Shown here: one piece after another, positions 1 to 28,577 of the stretch
Position numbering within the stretch: the first letter of the stretch is position 1
Layout of the letters: each line of letters opens with the position of its first letter
From: a virus
DNA length: 29,182 nt
Strand: one strand, 5' to 3'
Virus record (IMG/VR): IMGVR_UViG_3300025099_000094
Span: 1 to 29,182 of that record
Notes under the pieces: generated by a model
Seen by the model: only the letters and a program-made list of their open reading frames with translations
Told to the model about the DNA's origin: nothing
Database searches by the model: none
Translations under genes and position numbers: made by a program

Positions 1-29
1 ATACATATTATTATGATTAGTTTTTTCAT
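1..29 (-). CDS. Start of a gene cut by the window edge (hydrophobic N-terminus)
   Basis: The first nine codons read M-K-K-L-I-I-I-I-C. The ATG (29-27) overlaps the TGA stop (28-26) of the preceding lipoprotein gene in an ATGA arrangement, which is typical of translationally coupled phage genes. A basic start followed by a hydrophobic run suggests a membrane anchor or secretion signal. The Cys at residue 9 follows Ile and lies very early, so it is not a convincing lipobox. The rest lies outside the window. Its position just after a lipoprotein at the end of the structural operon would suit a lysis/spanin or cell-surface gene, but that is only inference. Confidence 0.45.
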
Positions 30-574
30 TCTTTTATTTTAATTGTTATATCGTGTGGCGCATATTCATTACCACCAAAATATGGGTACAAATAATACCT
101 TCTTATTAATCCCCAATTACCTTCAGGTCTTCTACGTACAAGTGTAGTATCGTTATCTATTACTATTACATAATAAAATGTTTTTATATCAATACTAGCA
201 TTATAAATTACATCTGTATCTATAGTTCTTATTGTTGCAGCGCTATGTCTACCTTCTTCATGTCTTAACCAGCAAAGCTCTAACTCACCATCTATATATC
301 TCCAACCAAGGCGTATTGAATACTTTTGATGCCTAACGCCAAAATCACTCATACCGTATATTTTGTTTACATCATGTTGGTTTTCTGCTATTTCAGTTTC
401 GTATATAGCAGATTCATCTAGCATAAACTTAAATTCTATTTTAGAATTTACCGGGTGGTTTATAAAACTACCTGAACTATGCTCACCAGCTGGTATTGTA
501 TAAACTCTAAAGCCAAGATCATCAACTTCTTTTGTACATGAAATTAATAAAAGAAGTATCAGAAGTTTTTTCAT
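26..574 (-). CDS. Short phage-encoded lipoprotein, probable beta-rich fold
   Basis: This 182-aa protein begins with a compact lipoprotein signal: MKK, a Leu/Ile core, then LLIS-C with Cys13 as the expected lipidated residue. The residues after Cys (T-K-E-V-D-D) are acid-rich, as in surface-export signals of Bacteroidota lipoproteins, and this hints at the host. The body is rich in aromatic and beta-forming residues and ends in a segment containing YPYFGGN...APHDITI. I associate that ending with jelly-roll/lectin-like secreted proteins of Bacteroidota, with low certainty. The gene starts one nt after the giant protein stops (TAA-A-ATG) and overlaps the next gene. Possible roles are superinfection exclusion, lysis or surface modification; no catalytic motif is evident. 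The lipoprotein call is firm and the function is unknown. Confidence 0.8.
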   Translation of the reverse strand: MKKLLILLLLISCTKEVDDLGFRVYTIPAGEHSSGSFINHPVNSKIEFKFMLDESAIYETEIAENQHDVNKIYGMSDFGVRHQKYSIRLGWRYIDGELELCWLRHEEGRHSAATIRTIDTDVIYNASIDIKTFYYVIVIDNDTTLVRRRPEGNWGLIRRYYLYPYFGGNEYAPHDITIKIKE

Positions 575-575
575 T

Positions 576-3500
576 TTACCGCAATATTTTTCTTTTTCTT
601 TTTTTCTTTGATTTTAAAGCTTCTATCTTTTCGTTTTTAATATTGAGATTGTACTGACTCCAACCTAAAAACATTAAAGTTCTTTCCCAAGCCGCATGCT
701 CGTTGTTAAGTGCCTGCCTTACATTTTGAGTTTTATTATATAACCTGTTAAGAGGTAAATTAGTAAAACCTTCTACATAGTTAGTTGCCGCCGACCATTG
801 TGGATTGTCAATATCAAAATTATTCATTTGAGCCATTACTTTTTTATTGTAATTTAAAGTTTTTTCAGCGTTTACAATTTTTCTAGCTTTAATGCCTAAT
901 ACAGGTGAAAAGTTTAAAGCCTCAACTAAAACAGCACTTTCATCTGGATTATAATTAACATCTCTTTGTCTAGCGTATGCAATAGCCGTGTTTTTTAAAG
1001 TAGAAAGAATTGCACCAAACATACCAGTTCCTCTTAAAACAGAGTCAATACTACCGTTTATTAACCTTTCGCGTTTCTTCAAAAACAAATTGTTAACATC
1101 TTCCTCGTCGTCATCAAACATCATTGCAAACATAGCTGTTTGTAAAGTATAGAATATTAAGTTTTGTATTGCAAGGTAATAAGTAATTCTAGCAGCGTTA
1201 GAAATATCACTTTGCATTTGTGTAGTATTAGGTTTTGTTATTCTTCTATTTTTAATATCTAAAAACGCTTTTTTAGCCAACCTGTTGAACTGCGAAGTTA
1301 CGTTCTGAAAGTTTAATATAACTTTACCAATAATAGATGCTTGTTGTTTAGAAACCATATCAGGTCTTGCAGACTGTTGCGTTGACTGTGTTATGTCTTG
1401 AAAGTCTGTAAATGCTTTTGCCTCAGCTTCTTTTTTACTTAAACCTTGGCTTAAGTAAGTATTAATTCTATTTCTATAATATGTAGCGCCACCAGTTGCG
1501 ATTGCAATATTATCACCAATTTGTGTAGGTAAAAAACCTAATTCTAGCAACTTAGATATTAAAAATCTGTGAGGATTTTTAGATTTACGCATCTCAGCAG
1601 CAAGCTCAGCGCCGTTAACATCAGTCATGATACCACCCCTTCTTTGTTTTAACATATCAGAGTTAAATATAAAACCCCAATCGTCCCAATATTGTTTTTG
1701 GTTAGCAAAAGCTTTTGCAGCCGCGTACACATTATTATCGGCAAAGTTAATATAGTTTACTATAGACATTTGTTGTAGCAAAGAAGACCTTACGTTAAAA
1801 AACATGACAGACCCAACAGATCCGTTAACCCAGTTCATAAGCCTATTAACCATACCACTTTGACCAGTAGGTTTGTTTCTACCAGTTTTAATTCTATAAA
1901 GCATGTCTTCTAAAGCCTCTCTCATGCCTTTGCCGTAACCAGCTTCTATTTTATTTAAATTTTCTGTAGAAAATATTGCGTCAGCATTTTTAATAAACTC
2001 TTGAAAAAACTGAGCTCTACCAATTCTACCCGTAGCATCGTCTAAATCCATACGTATATCACCACTATCCCAGCCATCTGTAGGGTCAACATACTTTTCT
2101 TGTTTTGATATAGTATTTATAGCTTCTGCATAGCTTTTTAAGTTTAGATCAGAATTAACTAGCTCGACTAAAGCTTTTTGATCTGTTTCACTTAATCCTG
2201 GTATATCATACCCATGTTTATCCCACAAATACACTCTTACAGCGTCTTGATACACAAAGTCACCATCAGGAGTTTTTTGATTAAGCATTTTTTTAACATT
2301 AGACATTTGCTTGTTTAAGTTTTTATAATCAGTTGCTACTGATTGCCTAGCTGTATCATACTCTCTGTTAGCTCTGTTTAAAGGTCTAATTAAAGCTTCT
2401 TCAAAAAAGTCTCTGTGTTTATTGCCCAAAACTCCTTTACCCATAAAGTTATACAATAAACCTACAAAGTCTTCGTGTGATGGCGGTATAAATAATCTAA
2501 ACTTACCTTTACCAGCGCCACGTTTTCTAGCCTTTATAAAACCAAATCTTTTTTTAGCGTCGATACCAGAAACATCTTCTAATATTTGATTAAACTTTTC
2601 GCTTAAACCTTCGCTAAAGTTTATTTTAGCTTGTACAACTTTTGATTTTATATCTAATTGCTCTAACACGTTTTTAACTGCTTTGACATTTGGCAGAGCA
2701 TCATCTACAAAGTACATGTCGTTATAACCTTCTGCAAATTTATTTAACATCCAAAGAGCTTTTGCTTCACCAGTACTATTACCTAGACCAGTTATGTTTT
2801 CTAAAGGTATATTTATACCTTCACTTTTTAAGTACTCGTGTATTGCTTGTTGGCTTTCAGGTGCTCTTGCAGTTAATATAAATACGTTTTCAGGACCAAA
2901 CTTTTTTATTTGGTTTTTCATTTTTTGCATTAATGGTCCTGGTTTTCCATCAGTAACTTTATTAAAATCTGTAAAGTCCATTTTCCAGCCTTGTTGTAAA
3001 AGTTCGTCGCCAACAAAAGGCCATTTGTCAGAAGCTATACGTTTTGTTTCGCCATCTTTTGTTGCTATAACGTAGTTTTGACTTACACCTACTGTTTCAT
3101 CAAAATCAAAAGCACTCATACCTCTTGCCTTTGTGTTTTTATTATAACCTCTTGCGTTTGTAGTTGCTTCAGAAAAAAGCTCTCTTTGTTGTATTTGAGT
3201 GTCTAAAGCTTTGTTAGCCCCTTTGTTGTTTACATTAAACATTTCTGCAAAAGTTGTTTTACCGTCTAAACCTACTATTGAGTTAGGGTCAATACCAACA
3301 CCATCTGCGTTAAAAACTATTTCGTTAAAGTATCTTTCCCACCAACTGTTATCAAGAACACTCCAATCATCTGGCATACGCTTTTGTAAACTATACCCTC
3401 TAGCTGTTCTTGCTTTAGTCAGCTTCTTGTCCATAGCTTTGTCTAAAACTATTAACTTGTAGTTTTTAATAACAAGATCATAAGCAACCTCAAAAGAATC

Positions 3501-6500
3501 AACACGTTCATCTAATATGCTATTCATTAAGTATAAATAAGCGGCTGTAGCAGGCATAGCATGTTCAAATTCTATTTTATCACCTGTTATTTTTAAAGAG
3601 TAACCAGCTATTTGAGCGCCAAGCCTTTGCCAAGATTTTTTATCGTTTGCAGTAAGTTTTAAATAACTACCTACAGCTCTAACAGTTTCGCCAGTTTCAT
3701 CTTGAGTTATAGCAGTGTTAAAACGCTCCCACATAACTCTGTGTATTAAAGCTATGTCTTTGTTCCACTTGTTTATTCTTTTTGTGTCTGCAAGTTTTGT
3801 TCTAAAAGTTTTCTTAGTACCAAATATTGTTCCGTAATTTTTAACAATATCCCAGTTTGCTTTTTGTACTACTTTGCCTTTTTCGTTTTTAATTTCAACT
3901 GGTTTACCAAACACGCTGTCATCAGTGTTTTGAGCAAGTGTTCTAACGTCGTTTCTAAACTTGTTATAAGCTTCAGCAGCTTCTTTGCTATAGTCAGGAT
4001 TTCTAGTACCGTCCTTTTTAAACTCACTCATACTAACACCGTAGTTTTTGTTACTACCAGTAAACACATCAATACCGTCTTTTATCCAAAACTCTTTTGG
4101 CATATGTGGAAATAAATGAACAGGCATTGATTCTAAAAATTGTTTTCTACCAGCGTCAGTTTTTAAATTATAAGTTTTACCTTGACCTCTAGCTTGTAGA
4201 ACATTGTCTATACCTTTTTCTTCTAGCTCAAGAGTGTTTTTTACCATTAAGCCATCAACTTCTGTAAACGCCTCACTAAAAGCAGCTTTGCCCTGTGCGG
4301 TTGTAATATTTGCTATTTCTTGCGCTTTTATTTTTTCACCTCCACGTCGAGCTAACGGAGGAAAAGCATCTAGTTTTCTTTGAGCGCCAGCCAGTGTTAC
4401 ACCTATTGACAAAGCTTTTGCATTACTTTTTAAAAATTGACCAATATCTCTATTATACACGTTTGGCTCGTTTTTAGGTGTTATACCTAAATCTTTTTTA
4501 AACTTTTCAACAGTGTCAGGCGTAGGATTTCTAAACTGTGGTTTTAATATTTTAACAGATGTTTGGGTTGATAAGCCTAAGCTTCTACCGCCTGGTGAAG
4601 TTTCAGCGTCTTTTTTAGTAGCACGATCTGCACTAGTAGCCTTTGGATCTGTATAGTCCTCGTAAAAATAATCCATTACTAAACCTTTTAGACCAATAGC
4701 CCTACCATATATTTCCCTTGATACATCTATGTTTTCACCAATTTTATTTATATCAGCTGTTTTTCTAGTAACATTTAGCAGTGGTAAAGTTTTTATAAAC
4801 TTACTAGCGTTTTCGCCAGCGTTAAAAACTCTTTGTATGCTTTGAGCTTCAGCAGGTATAGGCATACCTTCTTTGTATTTTGTAACTAAAGATAAGTTAG
4901 CGCCACCTTTCATAATTTTATCAGCAGCTATATCAAATATAATCTCACCAACTTGACCAGCGTTGTTGTCAATTACCTCTTTAAAGCTATCACCTTCTTT
5001 TACTTTTATTTTAGATTTTATATTATCAGACTTTGTAGATACAATACTAAAGTCATCAAACATATCTATTTTTTGTACAAAAGTTTCTTGTGTGTTTGAA
5101 GTGTCGTTTACGTCACCGGCAACGTCTTTTATATTTGAATCATCAAGCTTAACGCTGTCACGAATACTTAGTATTTTAGCCTCTTCGTATATAGTATCAT
5201 CTTTAGGTGCTATATTTGCAGTTACAAATGTAGAAAACTTACCTTTTCCAGGTACATATCTTTTTATAAGACCAGGTAAGTAAACAGACAAAGCAGACAC
5301 AACGTTTTTTCTAGGTATATCACCAACTCTATCATCAAATCTCATAGCAGTTAGAGCTAATAAATTATATTGAGCTAGTAATTCCGCGTAATCTTTTCTA
5401 TACTGAGGATTATCTTTAAAATTAGGAAGTTTACTAAGTTTTTTAATTTGTCTTATTAACTTCTCAGGTGTTCTTTGTGTATCTTCAGAAAACACTGCGT
5501 CACCTTCAGGTGTTGTACCAGCAACTATTAAGTTGTTTTCTCTTACGCCTTTTCTAAAACTAGCAATGTAAGCGCTTATGTCTGCAGCATTATTAAACTT
5601 AAAATACATAGGCTGTTTACCATTATGATACTTGTTAATAGCTTCATTAAGTAAAAGCTTTAGTGAAACAATAAAACTAGTGTTTTCTTTTACTAAACCA
5701 GCATCTTGAAGCTCTGCTAATATAGGCGTTAGCTCTGCTAAGTATGTTTTATCACCTTTGCTTTTGTAAACATTTAACCTGTTTAATATTCTATTGTATG
5801 CTTGCTTGTCTTCAACTTGCTCTAACAAAAGCTCTATGTCTTTAGTTAATTCTTCGTTTAAACCACGAGTTTCAATATCTTCAAATAATTTTATTCTAGC
5901 GTCGTTTAGATGCGTTAGTTCGTGAAACACAGCAAAAGCCATAGTAGATTTGTCATAGCTAGTAGGCGCGTTAATTATATTGTTTACTACATTTTGTTCA
6001 ACAACAATTATATCGTTACCAAAATAACTAGCGTTAGCCCTTCTGTCTCTAAAACCAGCCATGTATTTTTCTATTTGTTCTTGCGATGCACCTTTTTCTT
6101 TCAACAAAGCTTCTGCATCTTCAAAAGTTTCTGCTTTTAACACGCTACCTTCTAAGCCTAAAACCATTGATAAACTTTCGTAAAATTTACCAAAGAAAAA
6201 ATAATCTTCTGCTTTAATGTTTTTAGTATCTACATTAATTCTTTCTGCAAGATCATTAAATTTTTCTTTTTGATCTTTACTAGGCTTGTCTCTTAAGCTA
6301 GTTATCTCTTGATCAATATCGTCAATTTGCTGTTGTATAATTTTTACATCATTAGCAATGGTCTGGTTGTATTTTTGACCAGATTGAGCCGCTCCTATTT
6401 GTTGTGCTTTTTTTCTTAGATCACGTTTTTTTCTTTGAGCTTCAAACAGTGCGAATATATCTTGGTTGTCCATGTTAGAAACATCAGCAAAAACAGCAGC

Positions 6501-8801
6501 ATCTTGAACTTGAGCTTCTCTTAAAATTCTCATCAGCTCACTTTCTAAATAAACTTCTAAATCTGTTTTTTCAATATTAGGACCTTTGTACAAAGTTTGT
6601 AGTTGAGCAGATATTTCTGCAAACTCTTTAGTTCTTTTTTGATTTGCATTTATCTCTTGTCTTGTAGATATATCACTTCTAACTGAGTTTACTACGTTAC
6701 CAGCAACAGAAGGTCCTTGAATAGCCATTGTAGAAAACAGAACGTTCATATTAAAGTCAGCATCAATGCCTTCAATTAAAGATTTGTTTTCGCCTAACAC
6801 GCCGTAGTCAACTAAGTTATGCCCTACTTGAGTAAAAGCCTCTTCAATATATTCTATACCTGTGTTGTAACCAAATCCACCAGCGCCTTTTAAAGCGTTA
6901 CCTATAGTAACACCAGCCACATCACTTTTACTTAACAAAGCTAGTTTTTGCACGTAACTCATTGTACCAAATTTCTCTGCATAAGCAGCAATACCACCGT
7001 ACATAATAGAACTAAAAGCTTTTTGAAGCTCTGTATAGTTTAATTGATTTTGAGCAAGTTCTATTTGTTTTAAAATAGATATTCTTTCGTCTACAGTAGT
7101 TGCTTTTGTTAACTCACTATTGTAAAAGTTTATATTTTCTTGTGCGTTTTTTTGGCTTATTTCCATTTCAGAAAGCTTAGAACCACCTTCTAATCCAAAA
7201 AATAATCTAGTAAGATACTTTGTTGCTGGGGCCACAACAGCTTTACCACCAAGCTTTATAACACCACCGTATGTAAGCGCAGATCCAATGCTAAATATAT
7301 TATTTGCAAACAACTGGTTTGCTGCATCGCCAAAATTAGCGCCTGGCCCAGAGAATTTTACATCTTCCCATTTTATATTTAAAGGTCTTGCAGCCTCTGT
7401 GTGTTTGTTTAAGCTTTCTTGATAATCTATAACATCGTTATGTATGTTTCCAAAAAGCTCTATATCTAAATCTTCTTTAAGCCCAGCAAAATTTGTACCG
7501 TAGTTAAATAAAAACTCAGGTATTTCTTCTAAATAATCACCAGCTTTAATAGCTAAACCAGCCATATCAACCAAACCTTTTTCTATAGATAACAAAGCAC
7601 CACCACTAAAAGTATAATCAAGTGCAAATGCTTGTGCTAAAAATTGAGAGTCATCTAGCTTGGAAGTTGTTTCTAAAAAGTTTTGCGAAGTTAAATCTAT
7701 TGACTCTGCAACTAGCCTTTGATTTGAAAGAGCAGTTCTATACTCAGTCATTATGTTTTCATAAGAACCATAAAGCTCTAAAGCTTTAGACTTGTCCTCA
7801 GCAGAAGAATTTGCATTTATATTTAAATCTGTTATTTGATTAACTAAATTTTCTACATCAGGCACGTATTGCTCAACAACAGTTTTATTAAACTCGTCAC
7901 TTGTTGTTTTATAATTGTTTCTAAGCGTGATTATTTCATCTCTTTTAAAACTTAGATAATTTTGCAAAACAGTGTTTGACTTTCCTTGTCCTTTGTATAT
8001 TTGAGTTTTAAGCTCAAACTTTTCTTTATCTTCTGTAGACCTACCATACATAGGTGTGCCTCTTTTTTTCATAGGCTCACTAGGGTCTGCAAAATCACTA
8101 GGGTATAGTATTTTTCTATCTTCAGTTAAAGCGTTTTTATATTCATCTATCCACAAAACACCTGTTTTAGGGTTTACTGCGGCAGGATCAATGTCATCAT
8201 ATACGCCTTCATCAAGATCTGCAGCAGCTACTTTTCTTATTTCATTATTATCAATTCCTGCAATATATAATTGTACTTTTTTCTTTTGTTCTTGTTTTAT
8301 AGCGTCTTGAAGCATAGAGTTGCTTACCAAGTTTAAATCAAAATTACCTGTTTCTTGGTAGTTCTTATAGCTTTCGTATTTAGGTATATCAGGACCAATG
8401 TAAGACTGTGAAGTAAAGGGTGTTTGAGTTACTTCAGAAAAATAGTTTTTAATGTCAGTATCTAGACTGTTTTCATACTTGTCTTTGTCTTTTCTAAAAT
8501 CAAACAAAGGAGTACCAGCCATTTTTTGACTACTCTTTTTTCTTTTCATGCCTGACAAGTCAAAATATTTATCTGCTAAATTTTTACTTACTTCAGAACT
8601 GTTTTTATTTATACTATTTTTAATTGTATAAGCGCTAGCAGTTGCCTCTTCAGGTGTTTTTGGTTTGTATATAATTTTTGGTTCTACTTTTTTTATTCCA
8701 AACTCTTCAATATATTTAGGTACACTCAAATTAGATTTTTGAGCAGCCTCAATTACTTTTTGTTCTTCATAAATATCGTTTCCAAACTTATACTGCGGCA
8801 T
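576..8801 (-). CDS. Giant polyvalent virion/ejection protein with HExxH, HAD and membrane segments
   Basis: This 2741-aa protein, counted from ATG 8801, is the last member of the internal-virion-protein block, the place T7 gp16 occupies. I chose this start because it follows the upstream stop by one nt and begins MPQYKFGNDIYEEQ, a typical opening. An in-frame ATG at 8852 would add 17 atypical residues inside the previous gene. Visible parts, in order: a Lys-rich N-terminal region; Gly/Ala amphipathic segments near 400, 500-530 and 610-645; a coiled coil around 820-870; a zinc-peptidase-like HELTH at 960-964; a sigma-factor-like stretch near 1150-1200 (YVPGKGKFSTFV); a HAD phosphatase-like domain with D1899/D1901, T1977, K2014 and D2033/D2034; a hydrophobic helix around 2540-2561 followed by DDDEED; and a very basic C-terminus. 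It is probably packaged and ejected with DNA. I did not find a DxDGD polymerase motif, so a virion RNA polymerase is not supported. Confidence 0.85.
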   Translation of the reverse strand: MPQYKFGNDIYEEQKVIEAAQKSNLSVPKYIEEFGIKKVEPKIIYKPKTPEEATASAYTIKNSINKNSSEVSKNLADKYFDLSGMKRKKSSQKMAGTPLFDFRKDKDKYENSLDTDIKNYFSEVTQTPFTSQSYIGPDIPKYESYKNYQETGNFDLNLVSNSMLQDAIKQEQKKKVQLYIAGIDNNEIRKVAAADLDEGVYDDIDPAAVNPKTGVLWIDEYKNALTEDRKILYPSDFADPSEPMKKRGTPMYGRSTEDKEKFELKTQIYKGQGKSNTVLQNYLSFKRDEIITLRNNYKTTSDEFNKTVVEQYVPDVENLVNQITDLNINANSSAEDKSKALELYGSYENIMTEYRTALSNQRLVAESIDLTSQNFLETTSKLDDSQFLAQAFALDYTFSGGALLSIEKGLVDMAGLAIKAGDYLEEIPEFLFNYGTNFAGLKEDLDIELFGNIHNDVIDYQESLNKHTEAARPLNIKWEDVKFSGPGANFGDAANQLFANNIFSIGSALTYGGVIKLGGKAVVAPATKYLTRLFFGLEGGSKLSEMEISQKNAQENINFYNSELTKATTVDERISILKQIELAQNQLNYTELQKAFSSIMYGGIAAYAEKFGTMSYVQKLALLSKSDVAGVTIGNALKGAGGFGYNTGIEYIEEAFTQVGHNLVDYGVLGENKSLIEGIDADFNMNVLFSTMAIQGPSVAGNVVNSVRSDISTRQEINANQKRTKEFAEISAQLQTLYKGPNIEKTDLEVYLESELMRILREAQVQDAAVFADVSNMDNQDIFALFEAQRKKRDLRKKAQQIGAAQSGQKYNQTIANDVKIIQQQIDDIDQEITSLRDKPSKDQKEKFNDLAERINVDTKNIKAEDYFFFGKFYESLSMVLGLEGSVLKAETFEDAEALLKEKGASQEQIEKYMAGFRDRRANASYFGNDIIVVEQNVVNNIINAPTSYDKSTMAFAVFHELTHLNDARIKLFEDIETRGLNEELTKDIELLLEQVEDKQAYNRILNRLNVYKSKGDKTYLAELTPILAELQDAGLVKENTSFIVSLKLLLNEAINKYHNGKQPMYFKFNNAADISAYIASFRKGVRENNLIVAGTTPEGDAVFSEDTQRTPEKLIRQIKKLSKLPNFKDNPQYRKDYAELLAQYNLLALTAMRFDDRVGDIPRKNVVSALSVYLPGLIKRYVPGKGKFSTFVTANIAPKDDTIYEEAKILSIRDSVKLDDSNIKDVAGDVNDTSNTQETFVQKIDMFDDFSIVSTKSDNIKSKIKVKEGDSFKEVIDNNAGQVGEIIFDIAADKIMKGGANLSLVTKYKEGMPIPAEAQSIQRVFNAGENASKFIKTLPLLNVTRKTADINKIGENIDVSREIYGRAIGLKGLVMDYFYEDYTDPKATSADRATKKDAETSPGGRSLGLSTQTSVKILKPQFRNPTPDTVEKFKKDLGITPKNEPNVYNRDIGQFLKSNAKALSIGVTLAGAQRKLDAFPPLARRGGEKIKAQEIANITTAQGKAAFSEAFTEVDGLMVKNTLELEEKGIDNVLQARGQGKTYNLKTDAGRKQFLESMPVHLFPHMPKEFWIKDGIDVFTGSNKNYGVSMSEFKKDGTRNPDYSKEAAEAYNKFRNDVRTLAQNTDDSVFGKPVEIKNEKGKVVQKANWDIVKNYGTIFGTKKTFRTKLADTKRINKWNKDIALIHRVMWERFNTAITQDETGETVRAVGSYLKLTANDKKSWQRLGAQIAGYSLKITGDKIEFEHAMPATAAYLYLMNSILDERVDSFEVAYDLVIKNYKLIVLDKAMDKKLTKARTARGYSLQKRMPDDWSVLDNSWWERYFNEIVFNADGVGIDPNSIVGLDGKTTFAEMFNVNNKGANKALDTQIQQRELFSEATTNARGYNKNTKARGMSAFDFDETVGVSQNYVIATKDGETKRIASDKWPFVGDELLQQGWKMDFTDFNKVTDGKPGPLMQKMKNQIKKFGPENVFILTARAPESQQAIHEYLKSEGINIPLENITGLGNSTGEAKALWMLNKFAEGYNDMYFVDDALPNVKAVKNVLEQLDIKSKVVQAKINFSEGLSEKFNQILEDVSGIDAKKRFGFIKARKRGAGKGKFRLFIPPSHEDFVGLLYNFMGKGVLGNKHRDFFEEALIRPLNRANREYDTARQSVATDYKNLNKQMSNVKKMLNQKTPDGDFVYQDAVRVYLWDKHGYDIPGLSETDQKALVELVNSDLNLKSYAEAINTISKQEKYVDPTDGWDSGDIRMDLDDATGRIGRAQFFQEFIKNADAIFSTENLNKIEAGYGKGMREALEDMLYRIKTGRNKPTGQSGMVNRLMNWVNGSVGSVMFFNVRSSLLQQMSIVNYINFADNNVYAAAKAFANQKQYWDDWGFIFNSDMLKQRRGGIMTDVNGAELAAEMRKSKNPHRFLISKLLELGFLPTQIGDNIAIATGGATYYRNRINTYLSQGLSKKEAEAKAFTDFQDITQSTQQSARPDMVSKQQASIIGKVILNFQNVTSQFNRLAKKAFLDIKNRRITKPNTTQMQSDISNAARITYYLAIQNLIFYTLQTAMFAMMFDDDEEDVNNLFLKKRERLINGSIDSVLRGTGMFGAILSTLKNTAIAYARQRDVNYNPDESAVLVEALNFSPVLGIKARKIVNAEKTLNYNKKVMAQMNNFDIDNPQWSAATNYVEGFTNLPLNRLYNKTQNVRQALNNEHAAWERTLMFLGWSQYNLNIKNEKIEALKSKKKRKRKILR

Positions 8802-8802
8802 A

Positions 8803-10131
8803 TTATTCTTCTTTTTTCTTTTTAACTGGCAACTCGTTATTCTCAAAAGCATCTACTATTTGCTTGTTATTTCCAAGTCTATATTTTAAAGCGTCATTAC
8901 TTCCGTCTTTGTAATTATAGTTTTGTCCTTCAGCACCAGTTACAGGCTCAAATTCTCCATTAGCATCCCAAACCCATTGATTGTTTAAGAACTTAAACCT
9001 AGTACCATCTACAGTGAAAGTTGTGTAATCTTTAATACCTTCAACTATTTTAGGTATTTGTTTTGGTTTTAAATAAACAGCAGTGTTGTCTGTTCCTGTC
9101 CAATCTAGCTTTACACTACCACCTTCGCCTTCTTCACCTTCCGTGTTTAAGTGTTTATCTTCAACAATATCAAAAAGCCAGCTTTTTAAATCAGTTTCTA
9201 ATTCTGAAGCGTTGTTAAAGCTGTAAGCATCAGCAAGTAAGTTTTCTTTTATTTGTTCTAACGTAGAAGGGTCTTTATCTGGATTTAACCTTACAAGCTC
9301 TTCGTTGTTAAGTTTTAATATAAGTTTTGACTGGCTTTGCGTATAAGAACCTAAGTCACCATATGAAAAGTCATAAGCAAAACTACGTACATCATCTAAG
9401 CTATTTGCTTTTAATTTATCAATTATAGAATTAATTTCTGTTTTAACAGAGTTTTCATCAAAAGGCTCGTTGTTTTTAGCAGACTTTTCACCGTATTTTT
9501 CAACTATAGATAAAAAATTATCAGAAGACTTAACCAAGTCTTTACTTTTACCTTTATAGCCAAGTAAAATATCATCAATGTTAATATTTTTTTCTAACTC
9601 ATCGTCATAAAAATATATACCATCATTTGTGAAAGTTATACTTTCATTCAAAGTACCAGTTTGTGAGTTTGTTACAATATCAAGAAGTCTGTTGTTAGCC
9701 TCGCTACCAATACCAGCAGAAACATTAGTAAATAAATTACCATTTAAAACATCATTTTGAATTTGTTCCCACTTGATTAAACCTGCTTTATTTTTTTCTA
9801 AAACAGTTTTTATGTTGTTAATTGTTTTTACTGCGTTTTTATATTTTTTAGTAAAAGCAGGGCTTTTTGCAATGATTTGGTTAGCATTAAAATACTCTTG
9901 CTTAGCACTTGTAATAAAGTCTAAGTTATAATCACCATACTTACCTTCAAAAACTTCAGAAGGTACTGATTGAAAAGCTTTTTGCCCTTGCGCCATTATC
10001 TCATGAGCTATAGCCTTTTTAGTACTAATGTACTGACCTATAGCACCTATACCTTTCATTATACCACTATAATCAAAAGGCTTTGGCCCTAGCTGCGCTG
10101 CTGCTCTTATTAAATTTTGATCTGCTCCCAT
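8803..10131 (-). CDS. Probable internal/ejection virion protein (442 aa)
   Basis: No family is recognised from sequence. The 442-aa product is mostly helical and polar, with a Gly/Ile-rich stretch near residues 20-35 (GIMKGIGAIGQYI), many Lys/Asn residues, an acidic Gly-rich linker around residue 340 (EGEEGEGG) and a Lys/Glu tail. It lies between the Gln/Ala-rich 217-aa protein and the giant protein, matching the middle position of the T7 gp14-gp15-gp16 internal core. On position alone I infer a structural protein that is packaged inside the capsid and ejected. The stop codon is one nt before the giant gene's ATG, which suggests coupled translation. There is no catalytic motif, signal peptide or convincing membrane helix. 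Confidence 0.75.
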   Translation of the reverse strand: MGADQNLIRAAAQLGPKPFDYSGIMKGIGAIGQYISTKKAIAHEIMAQGQKAFQSVPSEVFEGKYGDYNLDFITSAKQEYFNANQIIAKSPAFTKKYKNAVKTINNIKTVLEKNKAGLIKWEQIQNDVLNGNLFTNVSAGIGSEANNRLLDIVTNSQTGTLNESITFTNDGIYFYDDELEKNINIDDILLGYKGKSKDLVKSSDNFLSIVEKYGEKSAKNNEPFDENSVKTEINSIIDKLKANSLDDVRSFAYDFSYGDLGSYTQSQSKLILKLNNEELVRLNPDKDPSTLEQIKENLLADAYSFNNASELETDLKSWLFDIVEDKHLNTEGEEGEGGSVKLDWTGTDNTAVYLKPKQIPKIVEGIKDYTTFTVDGTRFKFLNNQWVWDANGEFEPVTGAEGQNYNYKDGSNDALKYRLGNNKQIVDAFENNELPVKKKKEE

Positions 10132-10147
10132 GTTTTAATTTTTATTA

Positions 10148-10801
10148 TTATCCTCCTAAATTTCCACTAGCTGCAGTACCTGCTGCACCTACAACAGCAC
10201 CAACAATATTACCCCACATTGCTTTGTTAGCAGCTATAGCATCTTGCGCATTACCTACCATTTGCATTGACATACCAAGCTTTGTAGATTCTCTGTCAAA
10301 TTCCATACCTTGTACAAGAGCTGCACCTTGTTGTTGCTGTGCCATGCCTTGACGCTCCATTGTTTGTAGCCTTGAAGCTTCTCTAGCTTGTAACATTCTG
10401 TTTTGTGATTCTTGTTGACCTATAGATGCTGAAGCTTGTTGTGCTGCTAAAGCACCTTGGTTAGATAAAGCTTGTATGTTACCAGCGTTAAAACCACCAG
10501 CACTTTGTAAAGAGCTTAATATATTAGCTTGGCTTTGTTGAGCTTGTTGTCTTTGAAACTGTGCTTGCTGTTGGTTAACTGTTAGATCTTCCATAGTGTT
10601 TTCCATACCAGCATATATGTTTTGCTTGTAAGGATTTTTAAAAGCAAAATTAGAATACTCTTGCATTTGCTTTTTATAGTCAGCTTCTGCTCTTTTTAAA
10701 TCTCTTCTTAATCTTTTACCACCAAATAAATTACCAAGAAACTTTGTTGGAGAGCTTTTTTTATTCCTATACACTTGTTTTTTAATTAAACCTACTGCCA
10801 T
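10148..10801 (-). CDS. Gln/Ala-rich internal virion protein, T7 gp14-like by position
   Basis: This 217-aa protein has a basic N-terminus (residues 1-45, including KRLRRDLKRAE), a long Gln/Ala helix-forming centre (about 75-165, rich in QQAQ and AAQQASA) and a C-terminal Gly/Ala hydrophobic segment (about 193-215) able to insert in a membrane. This layout resembles small internal proteins of podoviruses that form the trans-envelope channel at infection, and T7 gp14 is similar in length. I recall the QGALAAQQASASIGQQ pattern from other marine phage structural clusters. It opens the internal-protein block, with a 41-nt AT-rich gap before it and a 16-nt gap after. Assignment rests on composition and position, not on a conserved catalytic feature. 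Confidence 0.7.
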   Translation of the reverse strand: MAVGLIKKQVYRNKKSSPTKFLGNLFGGKRLRRDLKRAEADYKKQMQEYSNFAFKNPYKQNIYAGMENTMEDLTVNQQQAQFQRQQAQQSQANILSSLQSAGGFNAGNIQALSNQGALAAQQASASIGQQESQNRMLQAREASRLQTMERQGMAQQQQGAALVQGMEFDRESTKLGMSMQMVGNAQDAIAANKAMWGNIVGAVVGAAGTAASGNLGG

Positions 10802-12512: not shown

Positions 12513-15500
12513 CTAGTTTGTTATTTCTATTTTTGAAGGTCTACCTATGCCTTGAAAAGAAAAGCTTGAAGCATCAATTTCTTCTTTAGCACTTATAGTA
12601 TCTCCTTTTAAATTGTTAAACCACTTGCTTTCTTTTTTAATAAACTCTGGTATAAAACCAGTTTCTGTATCTGTAGTTAGTTTTTCTAACTTCCAACCAT
12701 CTTTTTGTGATAAATTGTAATAATTAGAGTCATTTAAATCTGCAATTACATTAGACTGCGATCCTTCGTAGTTAACCGTTTTAAAGGATTTAACATCACT
12801 AGGTGCATCGTTTAATATTGTATTAACTTTTGATTCATACTGTGTGCCATAAAAATTATTCCAGGTTACTTCAGAGTTAAAGCTAGTAACTACATCATCA
12901 TGGTGTTTGTACAAATCTCCATTTTTAAATGTGTAGTAAAAATTAGTAACACTAACACCTTGCTCTTGCACAAAAGATTTAAAACTAGACCAACCTTTTA
13001 CTTTTTCATCATAAGAAACTGTAGTAAACTCTAAAGATAAGTTATACTCGTTTTTCTTTTGATCGTAACTACCAATTAGATTTTGTTGGTTTTTTAGTTG
13101 ATCTTTAAAATACTTAGACATACCATACTCAGATATAGGTGTTATACCATCTCTTGACAGTCTTAGTACTTTACCTCTATTTTTATCTGTAAAATATGCT
13201 CTATAACTTTCTTTAGCAAAAGACTCTGGGTTTGTTGATATACCATAATCACCAACAAAAGGTATTGTTTGGCCTAAAACGTTTTGAGTAGCTATTAACT
13301 GAGGATTGCCATCAGCATTAAATACAGCATCTTTATTTGCTAAAACTTTAATTACCTTGTCTTCACAAAAAGTTATTAAATCAGTATTTCTACTAAATAG
13401 TTTTTGTATGCTACCGTAAGTAGGGTTTATATCTTTAGTTATTTTTTCTGCAGCAATAAATTGATTTAAATTATTTATTCCAGAAGTAGAGTTATATATA
13501 CCTGAATATATTAATCCATTTTTTTTATTTTCTTCTTCATAAACAAAATCAATAGTTGAAGAAGCTATAGCACCTTTGTCTATAATTACTTGGTTAAAAT
13601 CATCTCTTAATCTATTAGACTCAACGCCGTTGCCAAAAGAATAGCAATTAAACCAATCAAGCTCTTGTGTTGTGCCATGTAACGATATATCATAACAACT
13701 ACTAGCTTCGTAGTATATGTCTAAGTCTACATTTTCTTTAGGCTCTGTTTCCCATATAGCAGGGTTAGAACTAACTAGTTGATCATCTTCATTTTCATTA
13801 GGCTCTAAAAACTGTATTGCAGAAGGAGTATCGTTGTCAGCACCGTTTGTTGTATCTAAATAATTTGAATACGCTGTACCACTACTATTAACAAAATTAG
13901 AGTTTGTAAGCGGGTCAGCTGATTCGTAAATAGGGTTATTGCTAGCGTCTAAGTCAGGTTCAGCCTCCCAAAGTGCAAAAGGTATTATGTACGTTACTCT
14001 TCTATTAACAGATTCAGAAAACTCGTCCCAAACTGCCTCTAAAGATTGGTAAGCACCACTGTTTGTTAAAGTATTTATAGTACCTGAACTAGGTATGTAA
14101 AAATTATTGCCTTGAGAATTACTTACTGCACTCAAGTAAGTTTCAAAAGCATTTTTAACTTGAGCAAAACTTCTATAATTATATCTTTTTTCTTTAACAA
14201 CATCTCCGTTAATAATATATTTTGATTTTTCAGTATCTCCAACAAATCTAAAAAGTTTGTTTTTTGATAAATTTCTAGTTACATCAACTTGGTCAGCATG
14301 TTCTTGGTTTATAGAAGATCCTACAGCAAAAAGCTTTGCTCTTTGTAAAGATTCTACATTTACAGAAGCGTTTGAAACGCTATACGTGTTGTTAGTGTTA
14401 TTAATAGCGCTACCAAAATCTAAAGCGTGGTTTTCAAATTTTTCTTCAGCGTTTGGTAGTATTTGAGAAAAAGAAAGCTCCATGTACCACTGGTCATCAA
14501 CTCCATTTGGTGCACCACCTGGAACTTTGTAAATCCCCTTGCCATAGCCAGAGCCAAACCCATAGTTTGTTTCCCAAGTACCAAACAGCTTAGTCACAGT
14601 GTCATTAAGTTTATTAGACTCTGGATGTTTACCAGCATATCTTACTTGGTCAATAAACCACTCACTACTATTAGTACCATTATTAAATTGCAAACAATTG
14701 TTAACCCAATCACCTCTTGTATCAGAAGCTCCGTTACCTGGAGAGGAAACAGTACCATTTGTTCCTGATGGTAAAAGACTATTAGTATAATCTGCGTAAG
14801 TGTCTGACAAATAAAAAGCATCTACATAGGCTGTTGCAATAAAGTTATTAGGATCTAGCCTACTTTTTAAAACATATTTCTCAGTTAAAGAGTCGTTAAA
14901 TATTTTAACAAAAAACTTTCCATCAAATTCAGGTTGTTCTTTTACAACATCTTTGTAAATTTTTAACGATAAATTGTTGTTAAGGTCTGATGGTAAAAAA
15001 GTTGTTGCATTTGCAAAATCAGTATATATCCAACTTTCTTTATCTTTAATTTTTTCAACAAGACTTACGTTGTAATAAGGTGCTGCAAATTCTATACTAG
15101 CTATTTCATAAAAATCAGATAATATACTTTCAGAACTGTCTTTAAAAACAATACTTAAAGTTTCTGTTAAGTTGTCAATACTAGGTCCTCCGTCTGCTTT
15201 AAAAGTAGCTTCATGTATTTGAAACTCTTTAGAGCCAATTTGTGGCGTGTCACCACTAAACAAAAGCTCTATATCTCCAGTACCATTAGACTCTGTGATA
15301 AGTATGTTATTTGACTTTACTTCTACAGGTGCTTCGTTTTCTATAGCAATAATTTTATACTTCAAATTTTGACTAACTTGCTCGTCTTCGTCAATTTTCT
15401 TTTTTAATATTAAAAATGTTTCTTCATCTACTTTGTTTCTTTCAGAAGAAGGAAAAGCCATCCATATATTGCCATCTTTAGCTTTGTAAACTCTATCCAT

Positions 15501-17270
15501 AGCTAAGTTGTAATACTCGTTTGATGTTTCTTTTACATACATTTTATATGAATCTGCCCAGCTAGGCGCAGCTGTAATTGCTGTAAACTGTATAGAGTTA
15601 GAATTTTCTGCTTGATCTTTAGGTATTTTAAAAGAACTTCTTGAGCTGCTAAAAACCGGTGATTGCCTACCATATTTATCTAAGTAAACAATACCTAGTT
15701 GGTAATTTCTTAAAGACTTTAAAGATTTTTCTGGTTGTTTAGCCACTGGAGTAAAACCTGATCTTGTTACAAATGAAGCATCTACTAAAGGTTTTTCATT
15801 TAGGTTGTAGTTTTGAGTGTAGTTACCGTAAACAATTCTATTGCCAGTTATTTCTTGCGCTAAAGCTTTTTTAGGGACGTTGTCAAAAGGTCTTAAAAGC
15901 TGATTTGATGGTAGTGCAGAATAAATAGTATCTGATGTAACGTCGTAGTAATTTACGATCCAATTATTTTCGTAAGTAGTTGTAGTACCTACATTATTGT
16001 TTATTGTAATTACAGGTACGTCTTTGAAGTCATTGTATTTTATTTTTTCTACAAGATATACGTTTGGTGAATTTGATTCTTTATATAATAAATCAATTTG
16101 AACAACATCTTCTAATATATCAGCTTCTACAAAGTTTTTTAATCTTAAGCTCTTTAACTTGTTTTCCATACCTAAGTTATAAGCTTTTTTTGTTTCGTAA
16201 TCAAATGTGTTTGGGAAAAAAGCAACTTCAGAAAAAGGTGCAAAAGTAGAATATTCACCATCTTGGTACTTGTACCTGTAGCTAAACCTTGCAAATTGCT
16301 TTTCAAAAAAATCTATTGTATTTTGTTTTTTATAAACAAACCAATCAATAGCTGAGTAGTCAGTAAAGCCTTCTTTTATTTCAACAAATTCAACATGGTA
16401 AGTTCCTGGCGCAAAAACTCCAGAGCCTGGAACGTTTAAAGATGTACCGCTAACATCTGCGATAACTCTTATTCTAACTTCAAATAATTCTGGTAAATCA
16501 TTGATATCTGTTTGACCAGTGTTTCTTAAAAAAAGCAATTCATCACCAGCTTGAAAATTATTTTGACCTGTAAAATTAAAAAATCCATTTAAAAATGCAG
16601 TGTCATTTAAAACATAATTACCCCCAGCAGCGTTATCAAACAGTGCAAAACCACCACTTCGTGCAAACTCAGCAGTAGTTTTAACATCTAGGTTAACTTC
16701 TAATTCTAACTTGTTTTTTGGGGATTTTTTTATAACAGTAATGTGCTCTTCTCTAATATCTATGTTAGAGTACGTGCCAATATCTCTTTGTGAAACAATT
16801 AATTTTGTATGTGTGTTTTCATCTATAGTACCATCAATACATAAGTCAATGTTTATTTTTTTAGGTTCGCTAGCGTTGTCTGTCCAAAACAAAAGGTTGT
16901 CAATCATATTGATACCTGTTATTAATCTTTTAGGATCAAACTTTAAAACGTTTTTGTTTATATCAACCACAACTGGAGTTACTGTACTGCTTTTATAACG
17001 TAGTATCATGTCTTTGTCTACATTAGATATAAACCAATAAAGACCATTTTCTTTTTCATTACCATAAACACCAACGCAAACAGAATTAGCAGGTACAATG
17101 CTAGACAGCTTGGTATTGCTTAATATGTTTTCTAAAGCACCAACATCAGAATCTTCAGAAGTAGACACTTGTATATTCTCAGCATGTCTATACTGACCTT
17201 TAGGTAATAGTCTTTCGTCCAGGTCTTTATTCATTTTACCTGCCGAAAAATTTTGCTTAATTTCAGCCAT
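12513..17270 (-). CDS. Large tail stabilization/hub-like structural protein (1585 aa)
   Basis: The N-terminus, FSAGKMNKDLDERLLPKGQY followed by an NIQVSTSEDSDVG segment, matches what I remember of crAss-like and marine podovirus proteins annotated as P22 gp10-type tail stabilization proteins. Near residues 1345-1390 it carries another conserved stretch, RGKVLRLSRDGITPISEYG. The rest is beta-rich, with many Asn/Tyr/Asp-bearing repeats suggesting propeller or stacked beta domains. It is much longer than P22 gp10 (about 470 aa), so extra domains, perhaps fibre-docking, must occupy the middle. It is followed by the beta-rich 431-aa protein and preceded by two connector-like proteins. It most likely forms the tail nozzle or hub below the portal. 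There is no enzymatic motif that I can see. Confidence 0.75.
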   Translation of the reverse strand: MAEIKQNFSAGKMNKDLDERLLPKGQYRHAENIQVSTSEDSDVGALENILSNTKLSSIVPANSVCVGVYGNEKENGLYWFISNVDKDMILRYKSSTVTPVVVDINKNVLKFDPKRLITGINMIDNLLFWTDNASEPKKINIDLCIDGTIDENTHTKLIVSQRDIGTYSNIDIREEHITVIKKSPKNKLELEVNLDVKTTAEFARSGGFALFDNAAGGNYVLNDTAFLNGFFNFTGQNNFQAGDELLFLRNTGQTDINDLPELFEVRIRVIADVSGTSLNVPGSGVFAPGTYHVEFVEIKEGFTDYSAIDWFVYKKQNTIDFFEKQFARFSYRYKYQDGEYSTFAPFSEVAFFPNTFDYETKKAYNLGMENKLKSLRLKNFVEADILEDVVQIDLLYKESNSPNVYLVEKIKYNDFKDVPVITINNNVGTTTTYENNWIVNYYDVTSDTIYSALPSNQLLRPFDNVPKKALAQEITGNRIVYGNYTQNYNLNEKPLVDASFVTRSGFTPVAKQPEKSLKSLRNYQLGIVYLDKYGRQSPVFSSSRSSFKIPKDQAENSNSIQFTAITAAPSWADSYKMYVKETSNEYYNLAMDRVYKAKDGNIWMAFPSSERNKVDEETFLILKKKIDEDEQVSQNLKYKIIAIENEAPVEVKSNNILITESNGTGDIELLFSGDTPQIGSKEFQIHEATFKADGGPSIDNLTETLSIVFKDSSESILSDFYEIASIEFAAPYYNVSLVEKIKDKESWIYTDFANATTFLPSDLNNNLSLKIYKDVVKEQPEFDGKFFVKIFNDSLTEKYVLKSRLDPNNFIATAYVDAFYLSDTYADYTNSLLPSGTNGTVSSPGNGASDTRGDWVNNCLQFNNGTNSSEWFIDQVRYAGKHPESNKLNDTVTKLFGTWETNYGFGSGYGKGIYKVPGGAPNGVDDQWYMELSFSQILPNAEEKFENHALDFGSAINNTNNTYSVSNASVNVESLQRAKLFAVGSSINQEHADQVDVTRNLSKNKLFRFVGDTEKSKYIINGDVVKEKRYNYRSFAQVKNAFETYLSAVSNSQGNNFYIPSSGTINTLTNSGAYQSLEAVWDEFSESVNRRVTYIIPFALWEAEPDLDASNNPIYESADPLTNSNFVNSSGTAYSNYLDTTNGADNDTPSAIQFLEPNENEDDQLVSSNPAIWETEPKENVDLDIYYEASSCYDISLHGTTQELDWFNCYSFGNGVESNRLRDDFNQVIIDKGAIASSTIDFVYEEENKKNGLIYSGIYNSTSGINNLNQFIAAEKITKDINPTYGSIQKLFSRNTDLITFCEDKVIKVLANKDAVFNADGNPQLIATQNVLGQTIPFVGDYGISTNPESFAKESYRAYFTDKNRGKVLRLSRDGITPISEYGMSKYFKDQLKNQQNLIGSYDQKKNEYNLSLEFTTVSYDEKVKGWSSFKSFVQEQGVSVTNFYYTFKNGDLYKHHDDVVTSFNSEVTWNNFYGTQYESKVNTILNDAPSDVKSFKTVNYEGSQSNVIADLNDSNYYNLSQKDGWKLEKLTTDTETGFIPEFIKKESKWFNNLKGDTISAKEEIDASSFSFQGIGRPSKIEITN

Positions 17271-27773: not shown

Positions 27774-28045
27774 TACTTAGATCTACCCTCTGCAAAACCT
27801 TTAAATACTTTAACCTCGGTTTTAGTTTCTTTACCTTCTAGTATGTTCTCTTCCTCTTGTATTCTATTCAGTATTTCAAAAGCATCAAATATAGCTAGTT
27901 TTTTTGTTGCTGCAGCATTTTTTAATCTGTCAGCAGATATATCATCGTCAGAATCTACAATAGCTTCTTTAGCAACTTTAATCAGTTCTTCAACTGCCTT
28001 ATGCCCAGCTTGGATTATATTCTTCTTCGTCTCCTTGATATTCAT
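27773..28045 (-). CDS. Small helical protein, candidate terminase small subunit
   Basis: This 90-aa, almost wholly helical and charged protein (DDDISADRLKNAAATKKLAI, then FDAFEILNRIQEEEN) lies directly upstream of the large terminase and is joined to it by a TAATG overlap. That is the usual place for the small, DNA-recognising subunit, which is often short and helical. No helix-turn-helix can be called with confidence. Its start overlaps the preceding gene by 47 nt, more than elsewhere in the window, but no later ATG is available. An alternative is an unrelated packaging accessory. Confidence 0.55.
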   Translation of the reverse strand: MNIKETKKNIIQAGHKAVEELIKVAKEAIVDSDDDISADRLKNAAATKKLAIFDAFEILNRIQEEENILEGKETKTEVKVFKGFAEGRSK

Positions 28046-28577
28046 ATTTGATTGTAATAAAATTTGATAGTAGTCTATATAGTTTCTGGCCGTCTATAAT
28101 AAACTCATATTCTGAGCTTGGCCTAAAACCTATTAAATCACCTTTGTTAACTGTACCATCTGTATGTTTGACAATACCAACTAAAGGCTTTTCTTTATCT
28201 ACACTTAGTTTGTCTGTAGATTTTACTGGCGCTACAAAACAATATCCTTTCTGCGCTTGCCACTCGGTATCTTTGTATAAGAATATTTGATCTGGTTGTA
28301 CTAGGTATGTTTCCTCATCAATATAACTTCTACTGTTCTTTTCTATACCGTGCTGATTATGCCATCTTCTAAATACATTGTGGTGTACTACAACCTTATC
28401 ACCAACTTTTATATCTGTATCACCAACCGTAGGTATTGCTTTTACTATAGCTTCTCTACTAACGTACTGGTGGTTGAATATTTCTGTATTAACTATCAGT
28501 TCTTTACCTTCTATATCTTTTGTATTGTTGTATCTTGATTTTACTGGTGTTACAACAAAGTTGTAAACAGACTTCAT
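27999..28577 (-). CDS. GroES-like co-chaperonin candidate with two barrel-like halves
   Basis: This 192-aa protein has two similar beta-barrel-like segments. The first half (to about 115) contains GDTDIKVGDKVVVHH and later EETYLVQPDQIFLYK. These match the layout of GroES (a 'VKVGDxV' strand, then a terminal strand ending in a 'DILA'-like segment), with a loop between them. The second half has GYCFVAPVKS, NKGDLIGFRPSSEYEF and LYRLLSNFITIKY, a comparable pattern. T4 gp31 and similar phage proteins replace GroES in folding capsid protein, and this gene lies in the packaging/capsid operon. It is joined to the upstream gene by TAATG. The chaperonin assignment is my inference from pattern and context, not proven by catalytic residues. 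Confidence 0.55.
   Translation of the reverse strand: MKSVYNFVVTPVKSRYNNTKDIEGKELIVNTEIFNHQYVSREAIVKAIPTVGDTDIKVGDKVVVHHNVFRRWHNQHGIEKNSRSYIDEETYLVQPDQIFLYKDTEWQAQKGYCFVAPVKSTDKLSVDKEKPLVGIVKHTDGTVNKGDLIGFRPSSEYEFIIDGQKLYRLLSNFITIKYEYQGDEEEYNPSWA

Follow-up and report, generated by a model that had tools for sequence, protein, structure and literature searches.

The giant gene that closes the structural operon of this viral record most likely encodes a polyvalent protein of a Bacteroidota-type podovirus, one that holds the position of T7 gp16 and would be ejected from the virion (probability about 0.75). We favour this reading because of the gene order, the MS/MS annotation of phage phi40:1 and a zincin match to elemo gp21, and because of the structural matches of the C-terminal module in BFVD, the N-terminal lysins of relatives, the basic tail and the invariant HAD and zincin residues. 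Beyond the original prediction, which had described a single virion-type chain with peptidase-, HAD- and membrane-type parts, we observe that the protein consists of interchangeable parts, that its HAD domain and C-terminal module form the common core, and that the HAD domain hosts nested domains in relatives.

The window, a viral record of 29,182 bases, carries a podovirus head, tail and internal-protein operon on its minus strand. In transcription order, this strand holds a GroES-like gene, the large terminase, the portal and a probable scaffold. A major capsid-type protein comes next, then several structural proteins of the virion and four more proteins, and the giant ORF is last. The features needed for the gene-order argument are these:

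576-8801, minus strand: ORF that encodes the giant protein (2741 aa, then the stop codon), without internal stop
8803-10131, minus strand: variable protein of 442 aa at the T7 gp15 and phi40:1 gp100 position (placed by gene order; a homologue lies upstream in 7 loci)
10148-10801, minus strand: Gln-rich protein of 217 aa at the T7 gp14 position, homologue of phi40:1 gp099 (upstream in 78 loci)
12513-17270, minus strand: large structural protein of the virion, homologous to phi40:1 gp097 (phrog_14478, E 1.9e-151; 35-39% identity)

The single chain at 576-8801 is confirmed, and the predicted length of about twice that of T7 gp16 (1318 aa) measures 2.08x. From another in-frame ATG, at 8852, the protein would reach 2758 aa, but 8801 is the more probable start, since it lies 1 base past the upstream gene's stop and the first Met of L001-L003 falls at the same point (MPQY/MPEY/MPTY). 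The terminase is nearest to that of MW202828 (64%) and is also near those of phages of Flavobacterium, Cellulophaga, Tenacibaculum and Maribacter, and the best reading of the source is a podovirus of Bacteroidota-type, marine-type bacteria. The GroES-like gene (27999-28577, minus strand) lies two genes upstream of the terminase; such a gene is near the terminase also in phi46:3 and the elemo phages. Behind the giant gene follows an ORF of 182 aa (26-574, minus strand) that begins MKKLLILLLLISC, a lipoprotein-like signal, and is without a family match. Searched as a whole, the giant protein gave no convincing family in Pfam, PHROGs or NCBIfam scans, nor a tblastn match among phage records.

Its placement at the end of an internal-protein block, as originally predicted, holds across the relatives: in 86 of 86 testable loci a same-strand ORF ends no more than 300 bp upstream of the giant gene, and homologues of the 217-aa protein and of a 123-aa protein of the virion block lie upstream in 78 and 69 loci, respectively, and never elsewhere. 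In phi40:1 (KC821612), gp097 to gp101 are annotated with 'experimental MS/MS proteomics', the last giant protein included. The correspondence of slots is sound because both gp097 and gp099 are homologous to proteins of the window (12513-17270 and 10148-10801); for the MS-detected gp099, hhalign gives 72%, E 3e-5. Between gp101 itself and the giant protein we detected no homology, and the main text of the phi38:1 proteomics paper does not mention gp101. Elemo gp21 is annotated as a structural protein. The MS/MS-detected slot protein of phi40:1 and the structural likeness of the C-terminal module to large polyvalent proteins, described below, both support the idea of a polyvalent virion-type protein.

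How widespread is this protein? Used alone as query, it found 13 contigs. A profile of the HAD domain and C terminus matched at least 511 viral contigs, of which the best 80 were kept, and the same core occurs in ten contigs from genome bins. L099-L108, where the core sits on contigs assigned to bins of Maricaulis, Woesearchaeota, Aliivibrio and others, are probably phage contigs in wrong bins. Among the 101 proteins compared, nearly all contain the HAD domain and the C-terminal module, a frequency that is partly by construction as the set was retrieved with this core. The remaining pieces, each searched with its own profile, occur in 9-31 of the 101. Three of them are these:

6462-8801, minus strand: helical, clade-specific N-terminal region, residues 1-780 (HMM pieces in 9-16 of 101 proteins)
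4122-5084, minus strand: module b, residues 1240-1560 (in 20-22 of 101 proteins)
3282-4124, minus strand: module c, residues 1560-1840, with a conserved EH (in 20-31 of 101 proteins)

No recognised lysin was found in the N-terminal region of the giant protein; four relatives (L064, L067, L060, L059) carry lysozyme, GH108 or SLT domains at this end (residues 15-150), the GH108 match in one of the four being just under the cut-off. Module b is swapped with or without the sigma-like module, and module c is predicted well as an alpha/beta fold (pLDDT mostly 80-93). The HAD domain shares 88-98% identity with that of L002 over residues 1880-2040 and 75-95% with those of L006 and L007 over 1920-2040, whereas for the C-terminal module the identity is mostly 70-100% with L005 and L011 and about 50-70% with L002. 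The junction of the HAD/C-terminal exchange lies at about 2040-2080, and N-terminal to the HAD domain L005 has nothing detectable in common with the giant protein. The differing identities and the divergence of L005 therefore demonstrate, at the sequence level, an exchange of cassettes that includes the HAD domain itself.

The HAD claim of the original prediction is borne out:

2577-3149, minus strand: HAD-superfamily phosphatase domain, labelled PNKP-like, residues 1885-2075 (DUF2608, VIA-align)
3093-3107, minus strand: HAD motif I, DFDET, residues 1899-1903 (sequence, conservation)
2871-2873, minus strand: HAD motif II, T1977 (invariant in 86 sequences)
2760-2762, minus strand: HAD motif III, K2014 (invariant in 86 sequences)
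2700-2705, minus strand: HAD motif IV, D2033-D2034 (invariant in 86 sequences)

All four motifs (DxDxT, T/S, K, DD) are conserved: D1899, T1977, K2014, D2033 and D2034 are invariant in the 86 sequences, and D1901 and T1903 are kept in at least 90%. The isolated domain scores 25.5 bits against Pfam DUF2608 (cut-off 22.6), which we take to be a HAD-type family. In VIA-align, the top three matches are Pnkp1 (Z 9.4) and the T4 PNKP phosphatase (Z 9.0 and 8.9), followed by Legionella Lem4 (Z 8.5) and Ceg4 (Z 7.2), and nearly all of the best 50 rows on this region are HAD proteins. A Rossmannoid HAD fold at 1885-2075 is thus supported by the model. The label 'PNKP-like' is a lead, because the Z values of PNKP and Lem4 differ by less than 1, yet it gains from the relatives that nest a P-loop kinase in their HAD domain. 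This kinase, of AAA_33/zeta type, lies between HAD motifs I and II in L009 (residues 2451-2780), L069 (1855-2184), L102 (1106-1438) and L106 (552-884), and is equally close to zeta toxin and to polynucleotide kinase. At the same insertion point, L032 has an ART-PolyVal-like domain (residues about 1646-1830; sub-threshold, E 0.0016). In L060, a second DFDET at residue 257, near the N terminus, is perhaps a duplicated HAD domain.

The predicted peptidase has its own conserved signature:

5502-6134, minus strand: predicted zincin metallopeptidase, residues 890-1100 (invariant motif residues; profile match to elemo gp21)
5910-5924, minus strand: zinc-binding motif HELTH (HExxH), residues 960-964
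5733-5735, minus strand: E1023, predicted third zinc ligand (E in 92 of 92)

HExxH is present in 92 of 95 full-length relatives, 790-1505 residues (median 958) ahead of the HAD motif, compared with 0.85% of shuffled proteins, so that the motif noted in the original prediction is real. H960, E961, H964 and E1023 are invariant in these 92; the Glu ligand follows HExxH by 51-89 residues in all of them, and in control alignments with shuffled flanks unanchored columns were at most 83% conserved. An HExxH with a later Glu ligand is the gluzincin-type arrangement. The other three relatives (L030, L054, L073) have HDxxH at the corresponding place, and their metallopeptidases are possibly inactive or altered. 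In the model of the segment, a helix, two short strands, the HExxH helix and the Glu helix follow in that order with high pLDDT. The zincin profile finds elemo gp21 (residues 1518-1660; 93% probability, E 3e-7) and the giant protein of MW202828 (2478-2586; 61%, E 8e-5). To judge from these sequences, the giant protein very probably contains a zincin, which is probably active. The MW202828 protein (L014, 741-12320, minus strand) is 3859 aa long, occupies the same slot and has two HEFGH motifs (1615, 2500); its annotation as 'reticulocyte binding/rhoptry protein' is surely spurious.

Next to the zincin lies the segment that had been called sigma-like:

5157-5504, minus strand: sigma region 2-like module, residues 1100-1215, to 1219 in alignments (VIA-align, hhalign)

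This segment, GDIPRKNVVSALSVYLPGLIKRYVPGKGKFSTFVTANI, recurs in 15 of the 101 proteins compared, and 12 diverse copies keep GDIpRxNvvS...Y...I..Y.p.KgkFST. VIA-align returns SigH (Z 7.4), SigmaA domain 2 (Z 6.9) and SigB (Z 6.7), with unrelated helical rows scoring equally. Against eight bacterial sigma factors, hhalign gives P 0.006, collinear with KGKFSTFV, compared with P 0.056 or worse for 15 other regions of the giant protein. The match to sigma domain 2 is weak but consistent, and we consider a sigma region 2-like fold at 1100-1219 reasonably probable; nothing hints at promoter recognition by this module.

Searches of the separate pieces, as proposed in the original prediction, bore it out in part. 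Among the Pfam families, DUF2608 matched the isolated HAD domain, but Sigma70_r2 (PF04542) was found in 0 of 14 records at E<=10, MPTase-PolyVal (PF18818) was unmatched at E<=10 in the record, the virus records searched and the elemo and MW202828 records, and PNK3P (PF08645) was unmatched in the record and in every virus record searched. Of the enzymatic folds expected at the motif positions, the fold search found the HAD fold but listed no zincin: for the model of the N-terminal, zincin and sigma-like parts, Foldseek returned mostly long-helix matches, which filled the list. Profile searches with the HAD/C-terminal, zincin and sigma-like alignments against PDB sequences gave chance matches only.

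The chain ends in a large helical module:

579-2576, minus strand: conserved all-helical C-terminal module, residues 2076-2741 (in 94-100 of 101 proteins)
1119-1175, minus strand: borderline hydrophobic helix, about residues 2543-2561 (KD peak 1.26)
1098-1115, minus strand: acidic patch DDDEED, residues 2563-2568 (sequence, alignment)
579-614, minus strand: basic C-terminal tail KSKKKRKRKILR (net charge of last 25 aa)

Of the predicted membrane helix with acidic patch, the helix and DDDEED are present, but the hydropathy peak of 1.26 is only borderline (family median 1.34; at least 1.6 in 8 of 89 proteins). A C-terminal transmembrane helix is weakly indicated by the sequence, and we left it out as evidence because of this borderline hydropathy. 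The basic tail is a general property, with a net charge of at least +4 in the last 25 aa in 86 of 89 proteins versus 11% in the background. In BFVD, the module has 71 matches at E<=0.001. Near homologues head the list; dozens of large phage proteins follow that share 9-14% identity with it (E 1e-13 to 1e-5), and several of these bear the name large polyvalent or ART-PolyVal. The alignments span more than 1000 columns with poor rmsd and therefore denote a related arrangement, not a superposable fold, and the HAD domain or module c may account for some of the match. With this reading, the C-terminal module appears to resemble phage polyvalent proteins in predicted structure. By sequence, tblastn of the module against phage records gave nothing below E 5e-3, and HMM and hhalign comparisons of the core and C-terminal modules with phi40:1 gp101, elemo gp21 and T7 gp16 gave no homology. 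A 21-column match of these modules in MW202828 (P 0.005) was taken as chance. LPD38 (PF18857) was unmatched in the record; a single relative gave a hit (E 0.0017, 12.5 bits), which was rejected, being sub-threshold and, by converted coordinates, far from the C terminus.

From these observations we infer packaging, ejection, and every catalytic activity and target. The giant protein would be packaged near the portal alongside the products of the genes just upstream and, at infection, would be threaded out partly unfolded ahead of the DNA. For T7, ejection with partial unfolding has been described, and for crAss001 it has been proposed (PMC8954989, PMC10172136); by analogy it may apply here. The helical C-terminal module and its basic tail could have a role in packaging, in an envelope-crossing channel, or in both, and the cassettes N-terminal to it would enter the cell and refold. 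The zincin might cleave a host protein, or its own chain so as to set domains free; the HAD domain would remove phosphate groups, its nearest likeness being the phosphatase half of polynucleotide kinase-phosphatase; and the sigma-like module might dock on host RNA polymerase.

But does a packaged protein of this kind act on the host at all? It could be mainly a structural protein of the ejection channel, its HAD domain and zincin serving assembly by autoprocessing. Such a role would fit the gp16-like position, the fact that the HAD domain and C-terminal module are the most conserved parts and always linked, and P1 DdrB, which is cleaved prior to packaging, with autoprocessing before or during packaging proposed (PMC5512222). 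However, the catalytic residues are kept amid diverging sequence, and the kinase, ART-like and lysin cassettes of relatives are without an obvious assembly role, which makes a mainly structural protein unlikely in our view. We find it very improbable that the gene encodes a non-virion early or late protein merely located at the end of a structural operon: the lack of detectable homology to gp101 would agree with this, but the phi40:1 slot protein is annotated as virion-found, the gene order is conserved, the C-terminal module resembles polyvalent proteins and relatives carry N-terminal lysins. An ejected polyvalent protein remains our preferred reading, even though its C-terminal module lacks homology to gp101, elemo gp21 and T7 gp16, the whole protein falls into no convincing family, no clear transmembrane helix is apparent and the fold lists contain no zincin.

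The role of the HAD domain within an ejected polyvalent protein is more finely balanced. It may not be a nucleic-acid end-repair enzyme but a phosphatase of generic type, acting on nucleotides or small molecules, or one that acts on proteins, like the Legionella HAD effectors Lem4 and Ceg4. The Z value of Lem4 is less than 1 away from those of the PNKPs, Ceg4 still reaches Z 7.2, PNK3P is unmatched, and the nested kinase is as near to zeta toxin as to polynucleotide kinase; on the other hand, the top three structural matches are PNKPs, and at least three relatives nest the AAA_33/zeta-type kinase. We give this alternative slightly less than an even chance. A more specific scenario, in which the HAD domain is a virion-delivered end-repair phosphatase that comes in with the genome and, prior to phage gene expression, mends tRNA or DNA termini cut by host defence nucleases, and in which the sigma-like module seizes host RNA polymerase upon entry, is a speculative proposition that we hold to be rather unlikely; the nested kinase-phosphatases of relatives would belong to the same scenario.

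What emerges is a plan common to a family that is widespread (at least 511 viral contigs): a fixed HAD domain and C-terminal module bear protease, sigma-like, lysin, kinase and ART-like cassettes, with the HAD domain doubling as an insertion site. Should the HAD domain be PNKP-like, virion-delivered anti-defence RNA repair becomes directly testable. The C-terminal module, structurally common to other polyvalent proteins, may be a packaging or ejection address, which, if true, would be useful for all polyvalent proteins.

Finally, we would place the giant protein among known systems. As with T7 gp16, its gene is the largest of a three-gene internal-protein block and comes last, past the genes in the gp14 and gp15 positions, and the protein is largely helical. 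T7 gp16 has its transglycosylase in residues 1-156 and requires its positively charged last residues (PMC8954989); the basic C terminus recurs here, and some relatives of the giant protein have an N-terminal peptidoglycan hydrolase. The giant protein differs from gp16 in being twice as long, in lacking sequence homology, clear transmembrane helices and a recognised lysin, and in adding zincin, HAD and sigma-like parts.

With gp101 of the flavophage isolates phi40:1 and phi38:1 and with elemo gp21, it shares the operon slot and homologous neighbours, and with elemo gp21 also the zincin. It differs from both in the HAD domain and C-terminal module, where no homology is detectable, and gp101 is without HExxH. 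In T4 polynucleotide kinase-phosphatase, kinase and phosphatase stand in tandem. Its HAD half is among the closest solved folds (Z about 9), and some relatives of the giant protein likewise pair HAD with a P-loop kinase; in these relatives, however, the kinase is nested past HAD motif I, and it is absent in the giant protein. The N4 virion RNA polymerase is similarly a giant virion-delivered protein with a zincin (PMC5512222), whereas in the giant protein we recognised a sigma-like segment at most and no RNA polymerase domain.

In organisation, the giant protein is like the phage polyvalent proteins, for which zincins are already known (PMC5512222). As in these, several unrelated enzyme-like domains share one chain in a late-gene context: the HAD fold with DUF2608 and the HExxH...E signature predict two disparate activities, and the gene lies among late virion genes. 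Further likenesses are the zincin with HExxH and a later Glu, the ART-like and other cassettes of relatives, and the helical C-terminal module with its polyvalent-type predicted structure. The differences are that Pfam MPTase-PolyVal and LPD38 are unmatched in the giant protein and that its C-terminal module is constantly paired with a HAD phosphatase. Neither HAD as a domain nor sigma appears in the main text of PMC5512222; relative to that text, what is new here is that a HAD domain forms the constant core and takes up nested insertions, and that a sigma-like module is present.
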